Assembly (NCBI GenBank): GCA_002690705.1 | Contig: NZFO01000007.1 | Span: 39,555 to 103,554 of the forward strand | Direction of reading: 5' to 3' | Origin: Magnetovibrio sp. | GTDB taxonomy: Bacteria > Pseudomonadota > Alphaproteobacteria > Rhodospirillales > Casp-alpha2 | Length of the DNA stretch: 64,000 nucleotides | Shown here: positions 51,692 through 63,735 of the stretch, piece by piece | How the letters are laid out: each line of letters starts with the position of its first letter | Numbering within the stretch: position 1 is the stretch's first letter | Notes under the pieces: generated by a model | Told to the model about the DNA's origin: nothing | Databases searched by the model: none | The model's input: only the letters and a program-made list of their open reading frames with translations | Position numbers and translations under genes: made by a program

Positions 51692-52594
51692 ATTCCAAAC
51701 AATAGTTGTCAGAAAAGAAGTGTTGTTGCGCTATTTATCGGAGCGACAGCGACGGCTCTTAGTCCTATTTTCGTCAGGCTGAGTGATCTTGAGCCAAGCG
51801 CATCAGCCTTTCACCGTATGTTTTGGGCACTGCCGGTGCTTTGGTTAATAATTGCCGTCAAAGGGCGAACACGCTACCAAGCACGTCCTCATTCGTCTCA
51901 CGGGTCGAAACCACGCAGACAGGGTTATGCCTCACTAATTCTGTGCGGTCTATTTTTTACCGGCGACTTAATTACCCTGCATTGGTCATTCGAATTGACC
52001 AGCGTTGCTAACGCTATTCTGTTTTTAAACGCACAACCAATTCATGTAGTGTTAGGAGCGTGGCTTTTATTTGGCGAACGCCCAACAAAAAAAATTCTTA
52101 GTTCGGTGATTGTCGCTTTATCGGGCATCCTATTAATGGTCGGTGAGAGTGCAAGACTAGATGTTACTTACATGGTGGGCGATCTTTTGGGCATCGTCGC
52201 CGGACTTTGTTATGCCGGATATATTTTAACGGCTAGCCGATTAAGGGACGATTGGTCCAGCGCTGACATCAACATTTGGACTGTTTCTATAGCGTGTCCA
52301 TGTCTTCTTGCCACAGCGATCGCTAGCGATCAGGCTTTACAGCCCGAAATCTGGAAAGGTTGGATTCTCATGGTTTCTCTCGGCGTTATCTCACAGGCCG
52401 TGGGACAAAGCTTAATTATCTGGGGGCTGGCTACAGTTGGGGTGGCTTTTTCATCAGTCAGTCTTTTATTAGCGCCCATTGCTTCCGCGGTATTTGCTTG
52501 GTTATTTTTATCAGAGGCTCTCACGGCACAACAACTCATAGGCATGGCAGTTGTGCTAGTAGGCATTTACTTTGCTGATCGCAGTCAGATTTAA
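51692..52594 (+). CDS. EamA/DMT-superfamily transporter with probable ATT start
   Basis: This is a drug/metabolite-type transporter with ten predicted membrane helices in two EamA repeats; substrate unknown. The first ATG in frame (51818) would delete the first helix. The frame upstream is open and reads SVVALFIGATATALSPIFVRL and then SDLEPSASAFHR, exactly the expected first helix and loop, but contains no ATG, GTG or TTG. An ATT at 51692 lies seven bases after GGAG (51681-51684), so it is the likely start and gives 300 residues. The gene is either ATT-initiated or its start codon has been lost. Confidence 0.8.
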   Translation: MPNNSCQKRSVVALFIGATATALSPIFVRLSDLEPSASAFHRMFWALPVLWLIIAVKGRTRYQARPHSSHGSKPRRQGYASLILCGLFFTGDLITLHWSFELTSVANAILFLNAQPIHVVLGAWLLFGERPTKKILSSVIVALSGILLMVGESARLDVTYMVGDLLGIVAGLCYAGYILTASRLRDDWSSADINIWTVSIACPCLLATAIASDQALQPEIWKGWILMVSLGVISQAVGQSLIIWGLATVGVAFSSVSLLLAPIASAVFAWLFLSEALTAQQLIGMAVVLVGIYFADRSQI

Positions 52595-52937: not shown

Positions 52938-53657
52938 TCATTTCATGCGGAGTTTGCTGACCAGAGTTGGAAAATCATCTACCACAAGATCGTGGATCGG
53001 ATTGGGCTCTGGATCTGGAGGCCCCTCAGAACCCCATTCATCAGGACGACGCACAAATGCTGTATTAAAACCAACTGCCTTAGCAGCATCCAAATCGAAA
53101 TTGTGACAGGCGATCATCAATATTTCACTCGGGTCGAGTTGAAGTAATTTTGCCGCACTTGCATACGCTTCCGGAAGCACTTTATATTTGTTGATCGCTT
53201 CACACGAGATCACGGCATCCCAGGTCAAACCGTTGGCGCGGGCAGTATCTATAATAATCCGGACACTCAATATTGTGAAAGACGCGCAAATAAACTGGGA
53301 CCGCAGCTTTGGCAGCGTATCCGGAAAATCAGACCAGCACTTAAAATTATGAGCGCGTTCCCACCAGATAGCTCGGCGCTCCTCCGTCGTTGCAGCAGCT
53401 AAACCGTTCTCATCGAGCACACTATTGACCGCATTGCGATGAGAGTGATCAAAGTTGTAAGAGGGCGGTTCGTACTCACCGAGATTTAACATTGCGCCCA
53501 AGGCACGCCTTCGGGTCTCATTTGCGAGGGCGCCCCAATCATTCTCTACGCCATATTTCGCACCAAGTTCTGCATACGCGACCCTGAATCCCGTGTGCCA
53601 GTCTAGCACAGTGCCCCCCGTATCAAACGTTAGTGCCTTAATATTTGCAAGTTCCAT
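52938..53657 (-). CDS. HAD-superfamily protein, haloacid dehalogenase type II-like
   Basis: The N-terminus ALTFDTGGTVLDW contains the nucleophile aspartate of the HAD fold in a type II dehalogenase-like setting. The cap follows, then a third-motif lysine in NKYKVLPEAYASA and the acidic motif IACHNFDLDAAKAVGF. At the second motif, where L-2-haloacid dehalogenases have Ser-Asn, this protein reads CASFTIL, so the Asn is replaced and dehalogenase activity is not assured. The ATG at 53657 is preferred over 53681. Length is 239. Confidence 0.82.
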   Translation of the reverse strand: MELANIKALTFDTGGTVLDWHTGFRVAYAELGAKYGVENDWGALANETRRRALGAMLNLGEYEPPSYNFDHSHRNAVNSVLDENGLAAATTEERRAIWWERAHNFKCWSDFPDTLPKLRSQFICASFTILSVRIIIDTARANGLTWDAVISCEAINKYKVLPEAYASAAKLLQLDPSEILMIACHNFDLDAAKAVGFNTAFVRRPDEWGSEGPPDPEPNPIHDLVVDDFPTLVSKLRMK

Positions 53658-54086
53658 ATCTCTTGTTTCTCCAATGGTCACGTCGTTCTAATTAGTGATC
53701 ATTTTAGAACGCGACTAGCCATGCACCAAGTCAAACATATAAATTGATGCTAGTTTTTTTTGGGGAAAATAAGGGCGCAACGAGATACACAGAGGCAAAT
53801 ATTTTTAACGCCTCAGGCAACCAACACCTGTAATTAACGTATTGTATAATTACATTTGGTTTGTTTATCATTTAATTTTTATAAAAAATCGCGCTCCGTG
53901 TATGGACAGCTAGTCCCTCAATGGGATATGTCAGTATACACGAGATTTTAAATCGTAAGGTTTGGTTCGCGATCGGATGGGTTACGTTGGTGGTAGAATC
54001 TGTAATGTGTAGGTTTCTGTCACGATTCCTCGGCGCTCCAGGTAGAAATTCCTAGTTACTATAATTTTCATCGGATGGTCTAATTA
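53658..54086. promoter_or_regulatory. Upstream region of the apr operon
   Basis: This 429-base gap lies between two divergently transcribed units and must hold the apr promoter. A TATAAT at 53845-53850 is a possible -10 box, but no good -35 is at the right distance. No protein-coding signal is visible. Confidence 0.4.
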
Positions 54087-54963: not shown

Positions 54964-55443
54964 ATGCCAACATTTGTATACATGACACGATGCGACGGCT
55001 GTGGGCACTGTGTAGACATCTGCCCATCAGATATTATGCATATTGATACAACATATCGGCGCGCCTACAACATTGAACCTGATATGTGCTGGCAATGTTT
55101 TTCTTGCGTAAAAGCATGCCCACAAAACGCCATTGACGTCCGTGGCTACGCAGATTTTGCACCACTAGGGCACAGTGTACGAGTAAACCGAGAGGAAGAA
55201 AAAGGTACAATATCCTGGCGCATAAAATACCGGGATGGATCCGAGAAAAGTTTTGTCTCGCCTATTACCACCAAACCTTGGGGGTCAGGCATCCCGCAAT
55301 TGGCTGACGTCGCGCAGCCAAGCAAAGAAATGCGAGAGAGCCAGCTCTTATACAATGAACCCAAATACATTCGTTTTGATGAGGGAGGGTTACATACCCT
55401 AGAGTCAAATGGATTGAAGATGGAAGAGGGAGTGTATTACTGA
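54964..55443 (+). CDS. aprB: Adenylylsulfate reductase beta subunit (AprB)
   Basis: AprB is the iron-sulfur subunit that moves electrons between the FAD of AprA and the membrane. Two [4Fe-4S] motifs are present: CDGCGHCVDICP near residue 10 and CWQCFSCVKACP near residue 43. The C-terminal tail, rich in aromatic and charged residues, wraps AprA in known structures. AAGGAAA precedes the ATG. The stop overlaps the aprA start as TGATG. Length (159) is typical. Confidence 0.96.
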   Translation: MPTFVYMTRCDGCGHCVDICPSDIMHIDTTYRRAYNIEPDMCWQCFSCVKACPQNAIDVRGYADFAPLGHSVRVNREEEKGTISWRIKYRDGSEKSFVSPITTKPWGSGIPQLADVAQPSKEMRESQLLYNEPKYIRFDEGGLHTLESNGLKMEEGVYY

Positions 55444-57383
55444 TGGGCGTAAAAACCATAGTTGAGGATAACATCGATATTTTGGTTGTAGGGGCTGGAT
55501 TAGGAGGCACCGGTGCTGCTTTCGAAGCTCGTTACTGGGGGCAAGATAAGAAAATTATCATAGCTGAAAAAGCCAATATCGATCGCTCTGGTGCAGTTGC
55601 TCAGGGCCTGTATGCCATTAATTGCTACATGGGCACCCGTTGGGGCGAGAATAACCCGGAAGACCATGTACGCTATGCACGAATTGATCTATTGGGTATG
55701 GTACGTGAAGATCTCCTATTTGATATGGCACGCCACGTCGATTCTGCGGTGCACCAATTTGAAGAATGGGGGCTTCCGCTTATGAAAAATGAGACCACAG
55801 GCAACTATTTGCGAGAGGGCCGTTGGCAGATTATGATTCATGGCGAATCATATAAACCTATCGTCGCTGAAGCCGCTAAAAAATCCGCTGACAAAGTATA
55901 CAATCGGATCTGCGTTACTCACTTGCTGATGGATGATAGCAAAGAAAATCGGATAGCAGGCGCTGTTGGCTTCAACGTTAGGACCGGAAATTTCCATGTT
56001 TTTAAATCCAAAACAGTTATTTGTGGGGCTGGCGGAGCATCCAATATATTCAAGCCACGATCCGTTGGAGAGGGTTCAGGACGGACTTGGTATGCTCCAT
56101 GGTCATCAGGTTCAGCATATGGACTGATGATTGAAGCCGGCGCGAAAATGACACAGATGGAGAATCGTATTGTTTTAGCACGATTTAAAGATGGTTATGG
56201 CCCAGTGGGTGCATACTTCCTGCATCTTAAAACATATACTCAGAACGGAGTGGGTGAAGAATATGAGTCCAAGTGGTGGGACAGCCTTCAAGAAATAGTC
56301 GGTAGAGAATATCTCGACCCGGAGGTGTCGCATAAAACCCATAGACCGATACCAACTTGTCTGAGAAATCATGCGTTGATATCAGAGGTTAATGCAGGCC
56401 GTGGCCCAATCCACATGGTGACTATGGAGGCTTTTCAAGACCCTCACTTAGAGGAAGTGGGCTGGGAAAACTTTCTTGGCATGACTGTTGGTCAGGCCGT
56501 TCTCTGGGCTGCAACAGACGTTGATCCTAAGAATGAAAATCCAGAATTAACAACGTCGGAACCCTACGTTATGGGCTCGCATGCTACAAGCTCGGGGGCT
56601 TGGTGCTCAGGTCCCAGTGACCTATCCCCGCCCGAGTATTTTTGGGGTTACAATAGAATGATGACCGTGGAGGGGCTGTTTGGAGCAGGGGATGCAGTCG
56701 GCGGAACTCCGCATGCTTTCTCTTCTGGATCGTTTACAGAGGGCCGTTTGGCTGCGAAGGCTGCTTGTCAGTATATCGATGATGGGAAAGCCGACGGTAT
56801 CATAGTCTCTGACAAGCAAATTAATGAACGTAAGACTCAGGTCTTCGCTCCCATGGACCGCTATAAAATATATAGAAATGAAATTGTAGCGGGAACAGTT
56901 AACCCTCACTATATCAATGCCCGTCAAGGATTGGATAGACTCCAAAAACTAATGGACGAATATGCTGGGGGCGTGACCGTTAACTACATGACAAACGAAA
57001 AGCTACTTCAGATAGGATTGAAAAAACTTAAGATAATGGAGGAAGATCTCGATAAACTTGCAGCTAAAGACCTTCACGAATTGCTGCGTGCTTGGGAACT
57101 TCGACATCGTCATCGAACCTCTGAGTGTGTTGTACAGCACACACTTTTCCGCAAAGAAACCCGTTGGCCCGGTTATTATTATAGGGGTGATGCCATGAAG
57201 TTAGATGATGAAAACTGGCACGTTCTTACTGTATCACATCGGGACCGTGAGACAGGTCAATACACAATGTCAAAAGCTCCATGCTATCATTTAGTCGGTG
57301 CAGAAGAGGAGACTGCAAAGATTTCTTCAACTGAGAATGATTCAAGTAAAGAAGAAACGAAAGTTTTAGAACCGGCGGAATAA
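55443..57383 (+). CDS. aprA: Adenylylsulfate reductase alpha subunit (AprA)
   Basis: AprA carries FAD and interconverts sulfite plus AMP and APS. With AprM it usually runs in the oxidative direction, feeding electrons from sulfite to respiration. VVGAGLGGTGAAFEARYWG binds FAD near residue 16; RSGAVAQGLYAINCYMG is a family hallmark, as is the C-terminal HRHRTSECVVQHTLFRKETR. Length (646) is complete apart from a short acidic tail. The ATP sulfurylase gene (sat) needed to turn APS into sulfate is not in this window. A terminator follows at once. Confidence 0.97.
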   Translation: MGVKTIVEDNIDILVVGAGLGGTGAAFEARYWGQDKKIIIAEKANIDRSGAVAQGLYAINCYMGTRWGENNPEDHVRYARIDLLGMVREDLLFDMARHVDSAVHQFEEWGLPLMKNETTGNYLREGRWQIMIHGESYKPIVAEAAKKSADKVYNRICVTHLLMDDSKENRIAGAVGFNVRTGNFHVFKSKTVICGAGGASNIFKPRSVGEGSGRTWYAPWSSGSAYGLMIEAGAKMTQMENRIVLARFKDGYGPVGAYFLHLKTYTQNGVGEEYESKWWDSLQEIVGREYLDPEVSHKTHRPIPTCLRNHALISEVNAGRGPIHMVTMEAFQDPHLEEVGWENFLGMTVGQAVLWAATDVDPKNENPELTTSEPYVMGSHATSSGAWCSGPSDLSPPEYFWGYNRMMTVEGLFGAGDAVGGTPHAFSSGSFTEGRLAAKAACQYIDDGKADGIIVSDKQINERKTQVFAPMDRYKIYRNEIVAGTVNPHYINARQGLDRLQKLMDEYAGGVTVNYMTNEKLLQIGLKKLKIMEEDLDKLAAKDLHELLRAWELRHRHRTSECVVQHTLFRKETRWPGYYYRGDAMKLDDENWHVLTVSHRDRETGQYTMSKAPCYHLVGAEEETAKISSTENDSSKEETKVLEPAE

Positions 57384-58843: not shown

Positions 58844-59410
58844 TCAATCGTGTTTTTGCGCGGGGTTCAGTTTTTTCCTGAAAAACTTTTCCCTCCTTTC
58901 CACATCTATAACCATGTCTTGCGACACTTGAAAACCGAGTAAATACCACTCTTCCGTCCCATCTATGTATTCTATAGCCGGACCATTTTCACGATGTAAA
59001 ACACCATTAAGCCACCACTGGCTCATCTCATTATCTTCAATGACAGCAGGGCCGTCTACCCTGTGTCTCACACCACGAACCCACCACTGCTTTACCCCGT
59101 CCTCACGAACAACTGCTGGACCATCATCCCTATGATAGACGCCTCTTTGATGCCATTCTTGGGTTCCCGTTGACTCGATAATAGCTGGCCCGTCCTCACG
59201 GTGTAGTTGTCCATTTACCCACCATTCTCTCGATCCGTCAAAATGCTCAACAGCTGGGCCATCATCACAATGCTGTTTTCCAAACCTAAACCAAACTTTT
59301 GTACCATCTGGTACTTCAACAGCTGGTCCATCCTCACGATGGCGCTCTCCATTCAATCTCCATTCTATTGTTCCATCTTCTCGAGTAATTTTTTCTGACT
59401 GTTCAGACAT
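58844..59410 (-). CDS. Protein of tandem 23-residue MORN-like repeats
   Basis: Residues 12-149 consist of six consecutive units of exactly 23 residues with consensus DGtxxWwxnGxxHRxDGPAvxx; a seventh, degenerate unit starts at 150 (DGTEEWYLLGF). The motif is related to MORN repeats, which form extended beta-hairpin sheets and often bind partners or lipids. Such G-x-x-H-R-x-D-G-P-A repeats are frequent in phage and giant-virus proteins, so a phage origin is plausible. There is no signal peptide. The C-terminal 20 residues are basic. The role is unknown. It lies alone, with 247 bases to its upstream neighbour. Confidence 0.85.
   Translation of the reverse strand: MSEQSEKITREDGTIEWRLNGERHREDGPAVEVPDGTKVWFRFGKQHCDDGPAVEHFDGSREWWVNGQLHREDGPAIIESTGTQEWHQRGVYHRDDGPAVVREDGVKQWWVRGVRHRVDGPAVIEDNEMSQWWLNGVLHRENGPAIEYIDGTEEWYLLGFQVSQDMVIDVERREKFFRKKLNPAQKHD
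58964..59377 (-). repeat. Six 69-bp in-frame repeat units
   Basis: The six complete 23-codon units of the repeat protein span this interval with no insertion or deletion between units. Their DNA sequences have diverged at many positions while HR-x-DGPA is kept, so the repeat is old and under protein-level constraint rather than freshly amplified. Confidence 0.85.
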
Positions 59411-61213: not shown

Positions 61214-62077
61214 TTAATCTTGTTGTGATTCAAAGATCGATCTTTGCCCTTTCAAAGGGGGTAGCGGACATAGCTCTCGATCAACTTCAGGGTAAATTGG
61301 ATGACATCCTCTTACAATTGCACCGTTATATCGGCTATTTTGATTATATGGCATGATGGGCAGAGAGGCCGCTCTCGAATACGCAAAAAGTAGAAGGGGC
61401 CGCGGCTTCACCGGATGCACATTTGGCTGTGATCCATGCACAGCGCGGCAGTGATGAACGGTTACCGTTCCAGCAGGACCTTTAATATATCCAGCCCTAC
61501 CGATGGCAACGCTGAGCAAGTCACTTTTGTTAATGAACCCTTGCCACCGACCATCGGGTGCATAGTGATTAAAGATAGGTCCCTTGTGCGACCCGGGAAC
61601 TACCCCCATCGGACCCATGCTGTCATCAATCTCATCAAGTGCCAAACCGATAGTCAACACATTATATGAAGTATGTGGCCAGAACGGAATATCTTGGTGC
61701 CATTTGACCTCTGCTCCACCATCAGACCATTTGAAATTGAGCTTTCCGTGATGAAACTTGACGTCCGGCCCAAGAAGGTCTTCAGCCAAATCGGTAAATG
61801 GGCCCTCACTCGCAAACTCCCAAAATACGGAATCATAGTCTTGCGGTTTCATTAAACGCCGTAACCGCGGGTTACATGCAGCGTGATTACTCTCCACGTC
61901 GAACCATTCGTTAGTTTCCGTAATGTCGCGACTATCCTCAACAGCACGCTGTGCAGCCTCCGTAAGTCGCACTAACCACTCATCATCGATAAAAGCTGGC
62001 AAGCCAAGGTATCCCTCAGACTCAAAGGCTTCTTTTTGTTCAGCAGACAACTTGTTCGAATTAACCATTTCGATCAT
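61214..62077 (-). CDS. Phytanoyl-CoA dioxygenase (PhyH) family protein
   Basis: This is an Fe(II)/2-oxoglutarate-dependent oxygenase. The facial triad is recognisable: His and Asp in VKWHQDIPFW near residue 120 and the distal His in RAVHGSQPNVHP near 220, followed by the 2-oxoglutarate-binding arginine in KPRPLLLF. Length (287) is usual. The frame is open to 62116, but the ATG at 62077 follows GAGGGGAGT; the ATG at 62068 is another option. Substrate unknown. It is encoded just upstream of the M81 gene on the same strand. Confidence 0.88.
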   Translation of the reverse strand: MIEMVNSNKLSAEQKEAFESEGYLGLPAFIDDEWLVRLTEAAQRAVEDSRDITETNEWFDVESNHAACNPRLRRLMKPQDYDSVFWEFASEGPFTDLAEDLLGPDVKFHHGKLNFKWSDGGAEVKWHQDIPFWPHTSYNVLTIGLALDEIDDSMGPMGVVPGSHKGPIFNHYAPDGRWQGFINKSDLLSVAIGRAGYIKGPAGTVTVHHCRAVHGSQPNVHPVKPRPLLLFAYSRAASLPIMPYNQNSRYNGAIVRGCHPIYPEVDRELCPLPPLKGQRSIFESQQD

Positions 62078-62280
62078 ACTCCCCTCAACTGCTTGATTTA
62101 ACCTCACAACACACATGTTAGCCTAATTTTAAAGGTATTTTGCATCAGAAATGCCTACTGGCAGATGTATTCAAAAGGCCCCCCTACGGTTTTCTAACAA
62201 ACCAGTCTCAAATATCCAAAAGTATAGAAACACCGTAACTTCACAACACAGCTTAGCTAATAAAATGGAAGTCGGAACCC

Positions 62281-62877
62281 TTAGGTAAAGTTTACAAAAT
62301 GTTTTTTTACATACTCTACTAAAATGTCGCAGGCACTGCCGCTATCTATTTCTTGTAAAGACAATGTCACTTCCGGATTGTCCGGAACTTCGTAAGGGGC
62401 AGAAATACCCGTGAAATTTGACACATACCCTTTTCGCGCGCGGGTGTATCGATCATCTTTATCTCGCGCCTCACATAGCTCCAAAGGCATATCAAGAAAA
62501 ATTTCATGAAAATTCTCGGCCACAGATCGCGCACGGGCTCGATCTTCAGCATAAGGTGCAATAAAAGCAGCAATTACTACTAAACCCGACCGTGCCATTA
62601 TTGCTGCTAACTCTGCTGCTCTCCGTATATTTTCACGCCGATCGTTTCGCGAGAACCCTAAGTCGCTACTCAAGCTACCGCGAATTTTCACGCTATCAAG
62701 GGTATACACCTCTATACCATCTTTAAATAATCTGGTTGCTAAGACCGAAGCTAATACCTTTTTCCCCGATGCGGGCAAGCCAGTCAACCACATCACGCCT
62801 CCACGGTGCCCCTGCATATGCCAACGTTCATGAGGAGAGACCAGGTGCGTTACGTGCATAACGTTTGTAGATTTCAT
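62281..62877 (-). CDS. CysC-like APS kinase homologue with degraded active site
   Basis: The whole length aligns with adenylylsulfate kinase CysC, including the N-terminal HRGGVMWLTGL, SSDLGFSRNDRRENIRR and the C-terminal NFTGISAPYEVPDNPEV. Yet the catalytic sites differ. The P-loop reads GLPASGKKV, where CysC has GLSGSGKST, losing the Ser/Thr that binds Mg-ATP. The LDGDNVRHG motif reads LDSVKIRGS, losing the Asp-Asn. The phospho-acceptor serine of FISPH is alanine (FIAPY). Length (198) and frame are intact. It is probably a pseudo-kinase, a regulator, or an enzyme with a new reaction. It lies about 5 kb from aprMBA and diverges from the phosphodiesterase gene across 60 bases. Confidence 0.85.
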   Translation of the reverse strand: MKSTNVMHVTHLVSPHERWHMQGHRGGVMWLTGLPASGKKVLASVLATRLFKDGIEVYTLDSVKIRGSLSSDLGFSRNDRRENIRRAAELAAIMARSGLVVIAAFIAPYAEDRARARSVAENFHEIFLDMPLELCEARDKDDRYTRARKGYVSNFTGISAPYEVPDNPEVTLSLQEIDSGSACDILVEYVKKHFVNFT

Positions 62878-62937: not shown

Positions 62938-63735
62938 ATGCTCATCGCCCAGCTAGCAGATACACATCTATCTGACCCACTCATGGATGATCCAATATCT
63001 CACTCACGCATGGAGTGTTTACGCACTGCAGTCAATGCAATCAACAAGTTAGATCCCTCACCATCGATTATCATACATACCGGCGATATGGTTCAAAACC
63101 GCACTCATTCGGAGTATAAACTAGCCCAGATATTATTGTCAGATCTTCAAGCTCCTCTTTACGTCGTCCCTGGCAACAGGGATAGTCGCAGGATGCTGCG
63201 CGAAACGTTTGATCTGCCCGGCAATCGCAATGAACCTGTGCTATATTCAATAGATACACATGAACTTCGGTTAATCGCATTAGACACACAATCCCGTGAT
63301 ACCCGCAAGGGGGATTTAGATGAATTCCGCCTTAGATGGCTGGAGAATACTCTCAACACAAATAAGAGTAAGCCCACGGCAATCTTCATGCATCACCCAC
63401 CTGTTCCGATTACGACCAGTACTTTTCCGTGGCAGTTTATTCGTGAGGAAACTAGAGAAGAAGTGAGCGCGATTATCAGCCGTCACCCTCAGGTCATTCG
63501 GATTTTTTGCGGCCACAGCCACAGATTGTTTAGGTCTTCGATAGCAACTGCAGAGGTAAGCACGGTAACAAGTTTAGCTGCTGACCTTAGAATGGATGAT
63601 AAAAATCCACTTCAGGATCGAGACGCAGTTTATCACACGCATACACTAAAAGGCGGAAGCTTTATTACAAAAACGCATTTTGTTCCCATGCTGATAAATC
63701 ATAAACCCATGCATAAAGACCCACCCATTGGTTAA
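62938..63735 (+). CDS. Metallophosphoesterase, CpdA/Icc-like cAMP phosphodiesterase
   Basis: This is a class III cyclic nucleotide phosphodiesterase-like enzyme with a binuclear metal site. The ligand motifs occur in order: QLADTHL, HTGDMVQN, VPGNRDSRR, MHHPPVP and CGHSHR. The frame extends upstream to 62806 but homology starts at the ATG at 62938 (MLIAQLADTHL), giving 265 residues. cAMP is the usual substrate; other phosphodiesters are possible. GNRD replaces the commoner GNHD, a change also seen in active members of the superfamily. Confidence 0.85.
   Translation: MLIAQLADTHLSDPLMDDPISHSRMECLRTAVNAINKLDPSPSIIIHTGDMVQNRTHSEYKLAQILLSDLQAPLYVVPGNRDSRRMLRETFDLPGNRNEPVLYSIDTHELRLIALDTQSRDTRKGDLDEFRLRWLENTLNTNKSKPTAIFMHHPPVPITTSTFPWQFIREETREEVSAIISRHPQVIRIFCGHSHRLFRSSIATAEVSTVTSLAADLRMDDKNPLQDRDAVYHTHTLKGGSFITKTHFVPMLINHKPMHKDPPIG

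Follow-up and report, generated by a model that had tools for sequence, protein, structure and literature searches.

The window analysed here, a 64,000-nucleotide stretch of DNA from Magnetovibrio sp., encodes on its minus strand (62281..62877) a CysC-like protein that would belong to a pseudoenzyme branch of the very well-known APS-kinase family. The proposal that this protein is an APS-binding pseudokinase derived from an APS kinase, which would serve as an APS buffer or sensor, is one on which our judgement is evenly balanced. In such a protein the APS-kinase fold and the APS pocket would be retained, and phosphoryl transfer would be disabled. The proposal draws on the residues lost and retained, on the selection acting on the clade members, on the phylogeny and on the gene linkages found in some genomes, all of which are read directly from the sequences; APS binding, the absence of turnover and a regulatory output are the steps that we infer from them.

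The open reading frame (198 amino acids, intact from ATG to stop) specifies a protein that matches PF01583 (1.3e-51) and scores 181 bits against TIGR00455 apsK (cut-off 138.7); its score on PRK05541, 87.1 bits, falls below the cut-off of 127, so that it is not a PRK05541-type protein. The AlphaFold2 model has a mean pLDDT of 92.8, and its best PDB match in Foldseek is 2ofx_A (TM 0.92, E 2e-20), the kinase domain of human PAPSS1 in complex with ADP-Mg and PAPS. By profile (PF01583, TIGR00455) and by fold (AlphaFold2, Foldseek), the window protein is thus a member of the APS-kinase family, as was to be expected from the original prediction of a CysC fold in an intact frame. It has the same fold and length as the known CysC proteins (TIGR00455/PF01583; M. 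tuberculosis 4bzp/4bzq, human PAPSS1 2ofx, P. chrysogenum 1m7h), and it shares with them Lys39, Asp61, Arg66, Phe or Tyr at 75, Arg80, Asn83, Cys135, Phe155 and the FTG..PYE segment (residues are numbered throughout as in the window protein). Unlike CysC, its clade lacks the catalytic base Asp63, Asn64, the lid Lys141, Gly36 and Gly62, its genus lacks the P-loop Ser/Thr40, and the window protein alone lacks Ser107.

The roles of these residues are described for M. tuberculosis CysC, the numbering of which was converted here to that of the window protein from motifs and offsets. According to PMC4373884, Asp480 (= 63) is the proposed base, and its mouse counterpart is reported to be essential by mutagenesis; Lys562 (= 141) provides stabilisation of the charge during transfer, Mg is liganded by Ser457 (= 40), and Asp478 (= 61) binds a Mg water. 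The same source reports that APS is held by the side chains of Arg483 (= 66), Arg497 (= 80), Phe492 (= 75) and Phe576 (= 155) and by two backbone NH contacts, from Ile523 (= 106) and Ser524 (= 107), and that the ribose 2'-OH of APS is in addition contacted by both Asp480 and Lys562. From these roles it follows that the catalytic set is lost and the remaining APS-holding set is kept, and the ribose contacts imply that the APS affinity of the pseudokinase may be altered or reduced.

Four active-site motifs are altered in the window protein, all of them on the minus strand. The P-loop (residues 33-41; 62755..62781) reads GLPASGKKV, with Lys in place of the Mg-ligand Ser/Thr40 and with Lys39, Gly33 and Gly38 retained. 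The DGDNxR loop (residues 61-66; 62680..62697) reads DSVKIR, where the proposed catalytic base Asp63 is lost and both Asp61 and the APS-binding Arg66 are retained. The FISP motif (residues 105-108; 62554..62565) reads FIAP, within FIAPY (105-109), as a result of a Ser107Ala change, and the lid motif RDPKGLY (residues 138-144; 62446..62466) reads RDKDDRY, with Asp in place of Lys141. Three features of an active enzyme are therefore missing, namely the Ser/Thr that follows the Walker A Lys, the catalytic Asp63 and the Lys141 of the lid DPKG (DKDD). All four APS-holding side chains are present, i.e., Arg66, Phe75, Arg80 and Phe155, among which Phe75 (APS adenine stack) and Arg80 (phosphosulfate/adenine contact) bound the segment 75-80 (62638..62655, minus strand).

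The original prediction had read both the P-loop (GLPASGKKV, 33-41) and the altered LDGDN loop (LDSVKIRGS, 60-68) as we find them. The three changed features it listed are all real, but it overlooked a fourth one, the lid; the Ala it reported for the Ser of a FISPH motif does occur at position 107, but FISPH is found in none of the 37 canonical relatives, in which the motif is FISPY, FISPF or FISPL and, in one case, LISPY. A sequencing error is ruled out by the presence of changes in four motifs, two of them clade-wide. A serine phospho-intermediate of APS kinase is doubtful. The Ala at 107 need not matter, since in the M. tuberculosis structure the FISP Ser contacts APS through its backbone NH (PMC4373884).

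With the window protein as the query, matches were found in 55 of 61 genomes (its own and 60 relatives); a related-locus search using the pseudokinase protein alone as the query found no relative. The tree was built on 47 rows, a subset of all matches comprising eight clade proteins, L022, L060 and 37 canonical sequences; these rows do not include the other divergent copies of the window's genome (L003-L005), nor L070-L073, which duplicate L027, L014, L016 and L017, and 41 of the 47 rows entered the structure alignment (L013 has ambiguous bases). The eight clade proteins, which come from two genera (the window's genus g1, 3/3 genomes examined; g5, 5/5), group together with a support of 100 (ultrafast bootstrap) and 99 (SH-aLRT) after removal of the motif columns. 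The L022 protein (genome G007) is the weakly supported sister of this clade (84/66), and L060 (G013) is placed elsewhere in the tree with weak support. As the AU test of a single origin of all ten copies is borderline (p-AU 0.0585), L060 could be either a clade member or a second, independent loss. The window protein sits on a terminal branch of 0.49, longer than those of the two other g1 proteins (0.10 and 0.16).

A codon-level scan of the genome contigs of 84,980 species for a CysC frame with a D codon followed by a non-G codon yielded nine stretches, eight of which represent the pseudokinase group (Rhodospirillaceae, Rhodospirillales or Magnetovibrio). The ninth, L054 from Clostridiales, was rejected as a clade member, being a shortened tandem copy with LDSDNIR. 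The scan pattern recovers 33 of the 37 canonical sequences (when the G codon is allowed) and eight of the ten altered copies, missing the window's copy and L060; because it misses known copies, the scan is not exhaustive.

The changes differ in their phylogenetic depths, and the three substitutions do not make up a single signature. Asp63 is replaced in all eight clade members, by A, T, S or V without consensus, and so is Lys141, by Arg, Gln or Asp; Gly62 to Ser, Asn64 to Arg/Lys, Gly36 to Ala and the replacement of Pro140 are likewise found in 8/8. The P-loop Lys40 characterises genus g1 (3/3), whereas genus g5 keeps Ser40 (5/5), and Ser107 is present in the seven other clade members, in L022, in L060 and in the 37 canonical rows. 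Hence, the suggestion that the three substitutions might recur together in a clade did not hold: the P-loop Lys is genus-specific and the Ser to Ala change is confined to one protein, the clade-wide losses being those of Asp63 and Lys141. The window protein carries the further changes V41, E47A, G68S, S107A and G142D, among which E47A, G68S, Ser107Ala and G142D are found in no other of the eight clade proteins. The L022 and L060 proteins read DNATVR and HSQNFR where DGDNxR is expected, and have Glu or Asp at 141. Altogether, Asp63 and Lys141 are missing from all ten copies, Arg66, Arg80 and Phe155 are kept in all ten, and the side chain kept at 75 is F or Y.

Among the canonical sequences, 54 positions are near-invariant, with no more than one of the 37 rows departing from the common residue. 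All eight clade members retain 40 of these positions, and all eight have lost six others (36, 62, 63, 64, 140 and 141). Because these six clade-wide losses all fall inside the active-site motifs (15 of the 54 positions), the losses concentrate there beyond chance; the hypergeometric p-value of 1.9e-4 is indicative only, the motif set having been drawn with the losses already known. The clade also has residues of its own in 8/8 members, namely A36, S62, R/K64, R77, R81 and R143.

The selection acting on the clade was estimated from pairwise codon maximum-likelihood dN/dS values, the pseudokinase and the canonical CysC being compared in the same g5 genome pairs. In the three unsaturated g5 genomes, the pseudokinase is under selection as strong as that on canonical CysC: the values are 0.217 versus 0.203 for G033/G018, 0.186 versus 0.165 for G033/G029, and 0.272 versus 0.405 for G029/G018, a pair with few changes. 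The pseudokinase dN/dS is 0.068 for G002/G001 (dS 1.58) and 0.043 for G006/G024 (dS 3.5). In the pairs with the window protein dS is saturated and dN/dS uninformative, so that relaxed selection in the window lineage alone is conceivable. The window protein is 62% identical to the G002 copy, about the same as the 63% identity between the canonical CysC proteins of these two genomes; it is therefore no more diverged than the active-looking copy. No internal stop occurs in the ten copies, which come from four genera. The idea of a preserved non-canonical CysC is thus supported by purifying selection on its clade relatives, that is, on members other than the window protein.

The genome of the window (G000; 3.03 Mb, 96.5% complete) contains five PF01583 matches. 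As the original prediction had suggested to check, one of them is a canonical CysC, located on another contig (C16) and reading GLSGSGKSS, LDGDNLRHG and FISPF. Others are divergent copies that retain DGD (L003 on contig C7, WDGDHIR; L004 on C5, VDGDEIR); the C17 copy L005 has a score identical to that of L004. The PRK05541-type homologues L004/L005 are, like the window protein, divergent PF01583 paralogues; unlike it, L004 retains VDGDEIR and a GLSGAGKT P-loop. We take L004/L005 to resemble Campylobacter Cj1415, presumably a CDP-amidate kinase. On C5, a capsule-like cluster (L046, 5374-9130, with L004 at 1504-2025) contains a PRK05849-type protein (836 bits), a nucleotidyltransferase, the PRK05541 APS-kinase homologue and a gamma-glutamyl-CDP-amidate hydrolase-like protein (84 bits, below the cut-off of 250), presumably resembling the Campylobacter phosphoramidate capsule genes. 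A canonical CysC occurs in seven of the eight clade genomes and in nine of the ten genomes with an altered copy; it was not seen in the G001 assembly, which is 83% complete.

The closeness to an APS reductase operon is real, aprBA lying about 5 kb from the pseudokinase frame. AprB, the APS reductase beta subunit (54964..55443, plus strand; PF12139 3e-32), is followed by an AprA-type flavoprotein, the APS reductase alpha subunit (55443..57383, plus strand; PF00890 2.6e-17, PF02910 7.3e-9), named from its AprB adjacency and its domains. The co-directional downstream neighbour of the pseudokinase is a PhyH-family dioxygenase (61214..62116, minus strand; PF05721 2.2e-26), and a CpdA-like metallophosphoesterase is divergently transcribed (62938..63735, plus strand; PF00149 5.9e-15; the frame opens at GTG 62806), the gap between it and the pseudokinase being 60 bp if ATG 62938 is the start. 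A 188-amino-acid frame made of repeated HREDGPA-type units lies at 58844-59410, and genes resembling arsD and arsA, an assignment made by eye from the translations, occur from 63823 onward and in L044 (8378-10525); the pseudokinase genes of G001 and G002 likewise have ArsA-like and Gfo/Idh-like neighbours.

The altered copy is linked to apr in three of the ten genomes (G000, G006 and G007). In G001, G002, G024 and G033 apr is on a different contig, some of the contigs being just 4-11 kb long; AprB was found in seven of the ten genomes, and not in G013 nor in the clade genomes G018 and G029. A fixed partnership with AprBA is thus unsupported, and a fixed operon is ruled out by the variation of the neighbours between genera. 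Given a linkage in just three of ten genomes, several contigs being short, a function in APS sensing can only be suggested. A PhyH homologue with at least 65% identity occurs in six genomes, and in four of them (G000, G001, G002 and G006) it is co-directional and less than 3 kb from the pseudokinase; that of G033 lies on another contig, and G030 has a PhyH homologue and no pseudokinase. In G007 (L043), the L022 copy is flanked by a DUF2817 gene on one side and by a fragment of a metallophosphoesterase gene on the other, and a longer gene of the latter kind is close by. A metallophosphoesterase was matched in 41 genomes, and in 14 of them it is no more than 10 kb away from a match to aprB or sat, so that this enzyme belongs to the aprB/sat neighbourhood; the five CysC matches found within 10 kb of it all lack Asp63 (G000, G002, G006, G007 and G013). 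Both counts were made from coordinates compared by eye. The metallophosphoesterase of the window (62938-63735) is an as yet unassigned neighbour of the sulfite-oxidation genes, and we would guess that it possibly acts on AMP or APS.

In the G000 genome, the profile search found no match to Sat (PF01747) or to PF01507, which we take to be the family containing CysD and CysH, despite the presence of aprBA and CysC. In the sister genomes G001 and G002, sat lies about 2 kb from aprB; at this place the window has a transporter-like frame (51818-52594) and a HAD-like frame (52938-53681), both named by eye. Without Sat, the APS of G000 would come solely from sulfite via AprBA, unless there is an assembly gap, and APS handling would then be unusual, which we regard as a lead.

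Several other explanations have to be weighed. That the gene is a decaying CysC duplicate without function would fit the stepwise loss of the catalytic motifs, as well as the long branch of the window protein and its extra losses at otherwise invariant sites, but we find it very improbable: the frames are free of stops in the ten copies of four genera, omega is well below 1 and near the canonical value in the matched g5 pairs, and 40 of the 54 near-invariant positions are kept in 8/8 members, the losses common to all falling in active-site motifs. As a clade-wide explanation, decay is ruled out by the selection together with the pattern of losses. The original prediction had reasoned that close homologues with a canonical P-loop and Ser would mean a recently decaying gene. 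Nearly such homologues do exist in g5 (GLPASGKST, FISPY), but decay does not follow from them because they have lost Asp63 and Lys141 and yet are under purifying selection.

The main alternative, possible but unlikely, is that the protein has been re-specialised, either as a phosphotransferase or as an enzyme that hydrolyses nucleotides, for a different acceptor; this might be a product of the PhyH dioxygenase, and the DSxR loop would form the new acceptor pocket. The six residues proper to the clade, the GKST P-loop kept in g5, the PhyH linkage in four genomes and the presence in the same genome of APS-kinase homologues with other likely acceptors all speak in its favour. It is at odds with the divergent and presumably active homologues of G000, which keep DGD (L003 WDGDHIR, L004 VDGDEIR), with the lack of consensus at residue 63 (A/T/S/V), with the disappearance of the Mg-binding Ser/Thr from the window's genus, and with the retention of the APS-holding Arg66, Arg80 and Phe155, which would be unexpected with a new substrate. 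It is improbable that the protein is instead a regulatory partner of canonical CysC, tuning PAPS synthesis in a mixed dimer with no APS-sensing role of its own. A mixed dimer would be consistent with the dimeric state of M. tuberculosis CysC, as given in PMC4373884, and with the canonical copy found in 7/8 clade genomes, but the two genes lie more than 10 kb apart or on other contigs in all these genomes, and the canonical copy was not found in G001, though this assembly is 83% complete.

We therefore return to the APS-binding pseudokinase, in which phosphoryl transfer would be disabled by the loss of the base Asp63 and the lid Lys141 throughout the clade, and of the Mg ligand 40 in the window's genus. 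A residual or altered kinase activity is possible in g5, since Ser40, Asp61 and Lys39 are kept and the change of Lys141 to Arg is conservative. The output of the pseudokinase is the least certain step; its targets might be the neighbouring genes, AprBA or the canonical CysC dimer. As described in PMC4373884, no Mg was seen in the ADP-APS complex of M. tuberculosis CysC, and PMC3734648 proposes a stabilising effect of such dead-end complexes on PAPS synthases when APS is at 0.5-5 uM. Together, the two observations imply that a Mg-independent APS-binding state pre-exists in the family. It is conceivable, though we put it forward as a tentative and rather doubtful extension, that the window protein is a dedicated APS receptor, which arose beside the AprBA sulfite-oxidation cluster and would lock APS in a Mg-free dead-end state to buffer or report it.

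Pseudokinases keep a ligand-binding fold under selection, have lost their catalytic residues and coexist with an active paralogue, and the clade of the window protein displays the same traits, including a kinase fold with the catalytic residues lost in all its members. We know of no pseudoenzyme described within the APS-kinase family, and our search of the literature library used here for pseudokinase together with APS kinase found no such protein, the two terms meeting in PMC6094398, on tyrosylprotein sulfotransferases. The E. coli LysR-type regulator Cbl is taken to respond to APS and would thus be a precedent for APS as a bacterial signal; unlike the proposed receptor, Cbl is a DNA-binding regulator with another fold.

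APS is a branch point of sulfur oxidation, assimilation and sulfation, and a disabled but conserved APS kinase near APS reductase makes a candidate APS receptor that is small and can be expressed, and for which the active-looking paralogue of the same genome would serve as a control. If the receptor reading is true, an APS receptor would work in G000 with no detected ATP sulfurylase, on APS coming only from sulfite oxidation. For the family as a whole, the stepwise loss of catalysis can be read along the tree, with the base and the lid Lys lost in the clade, the Mg ligand in the genus and the FISP Ser in one protein.
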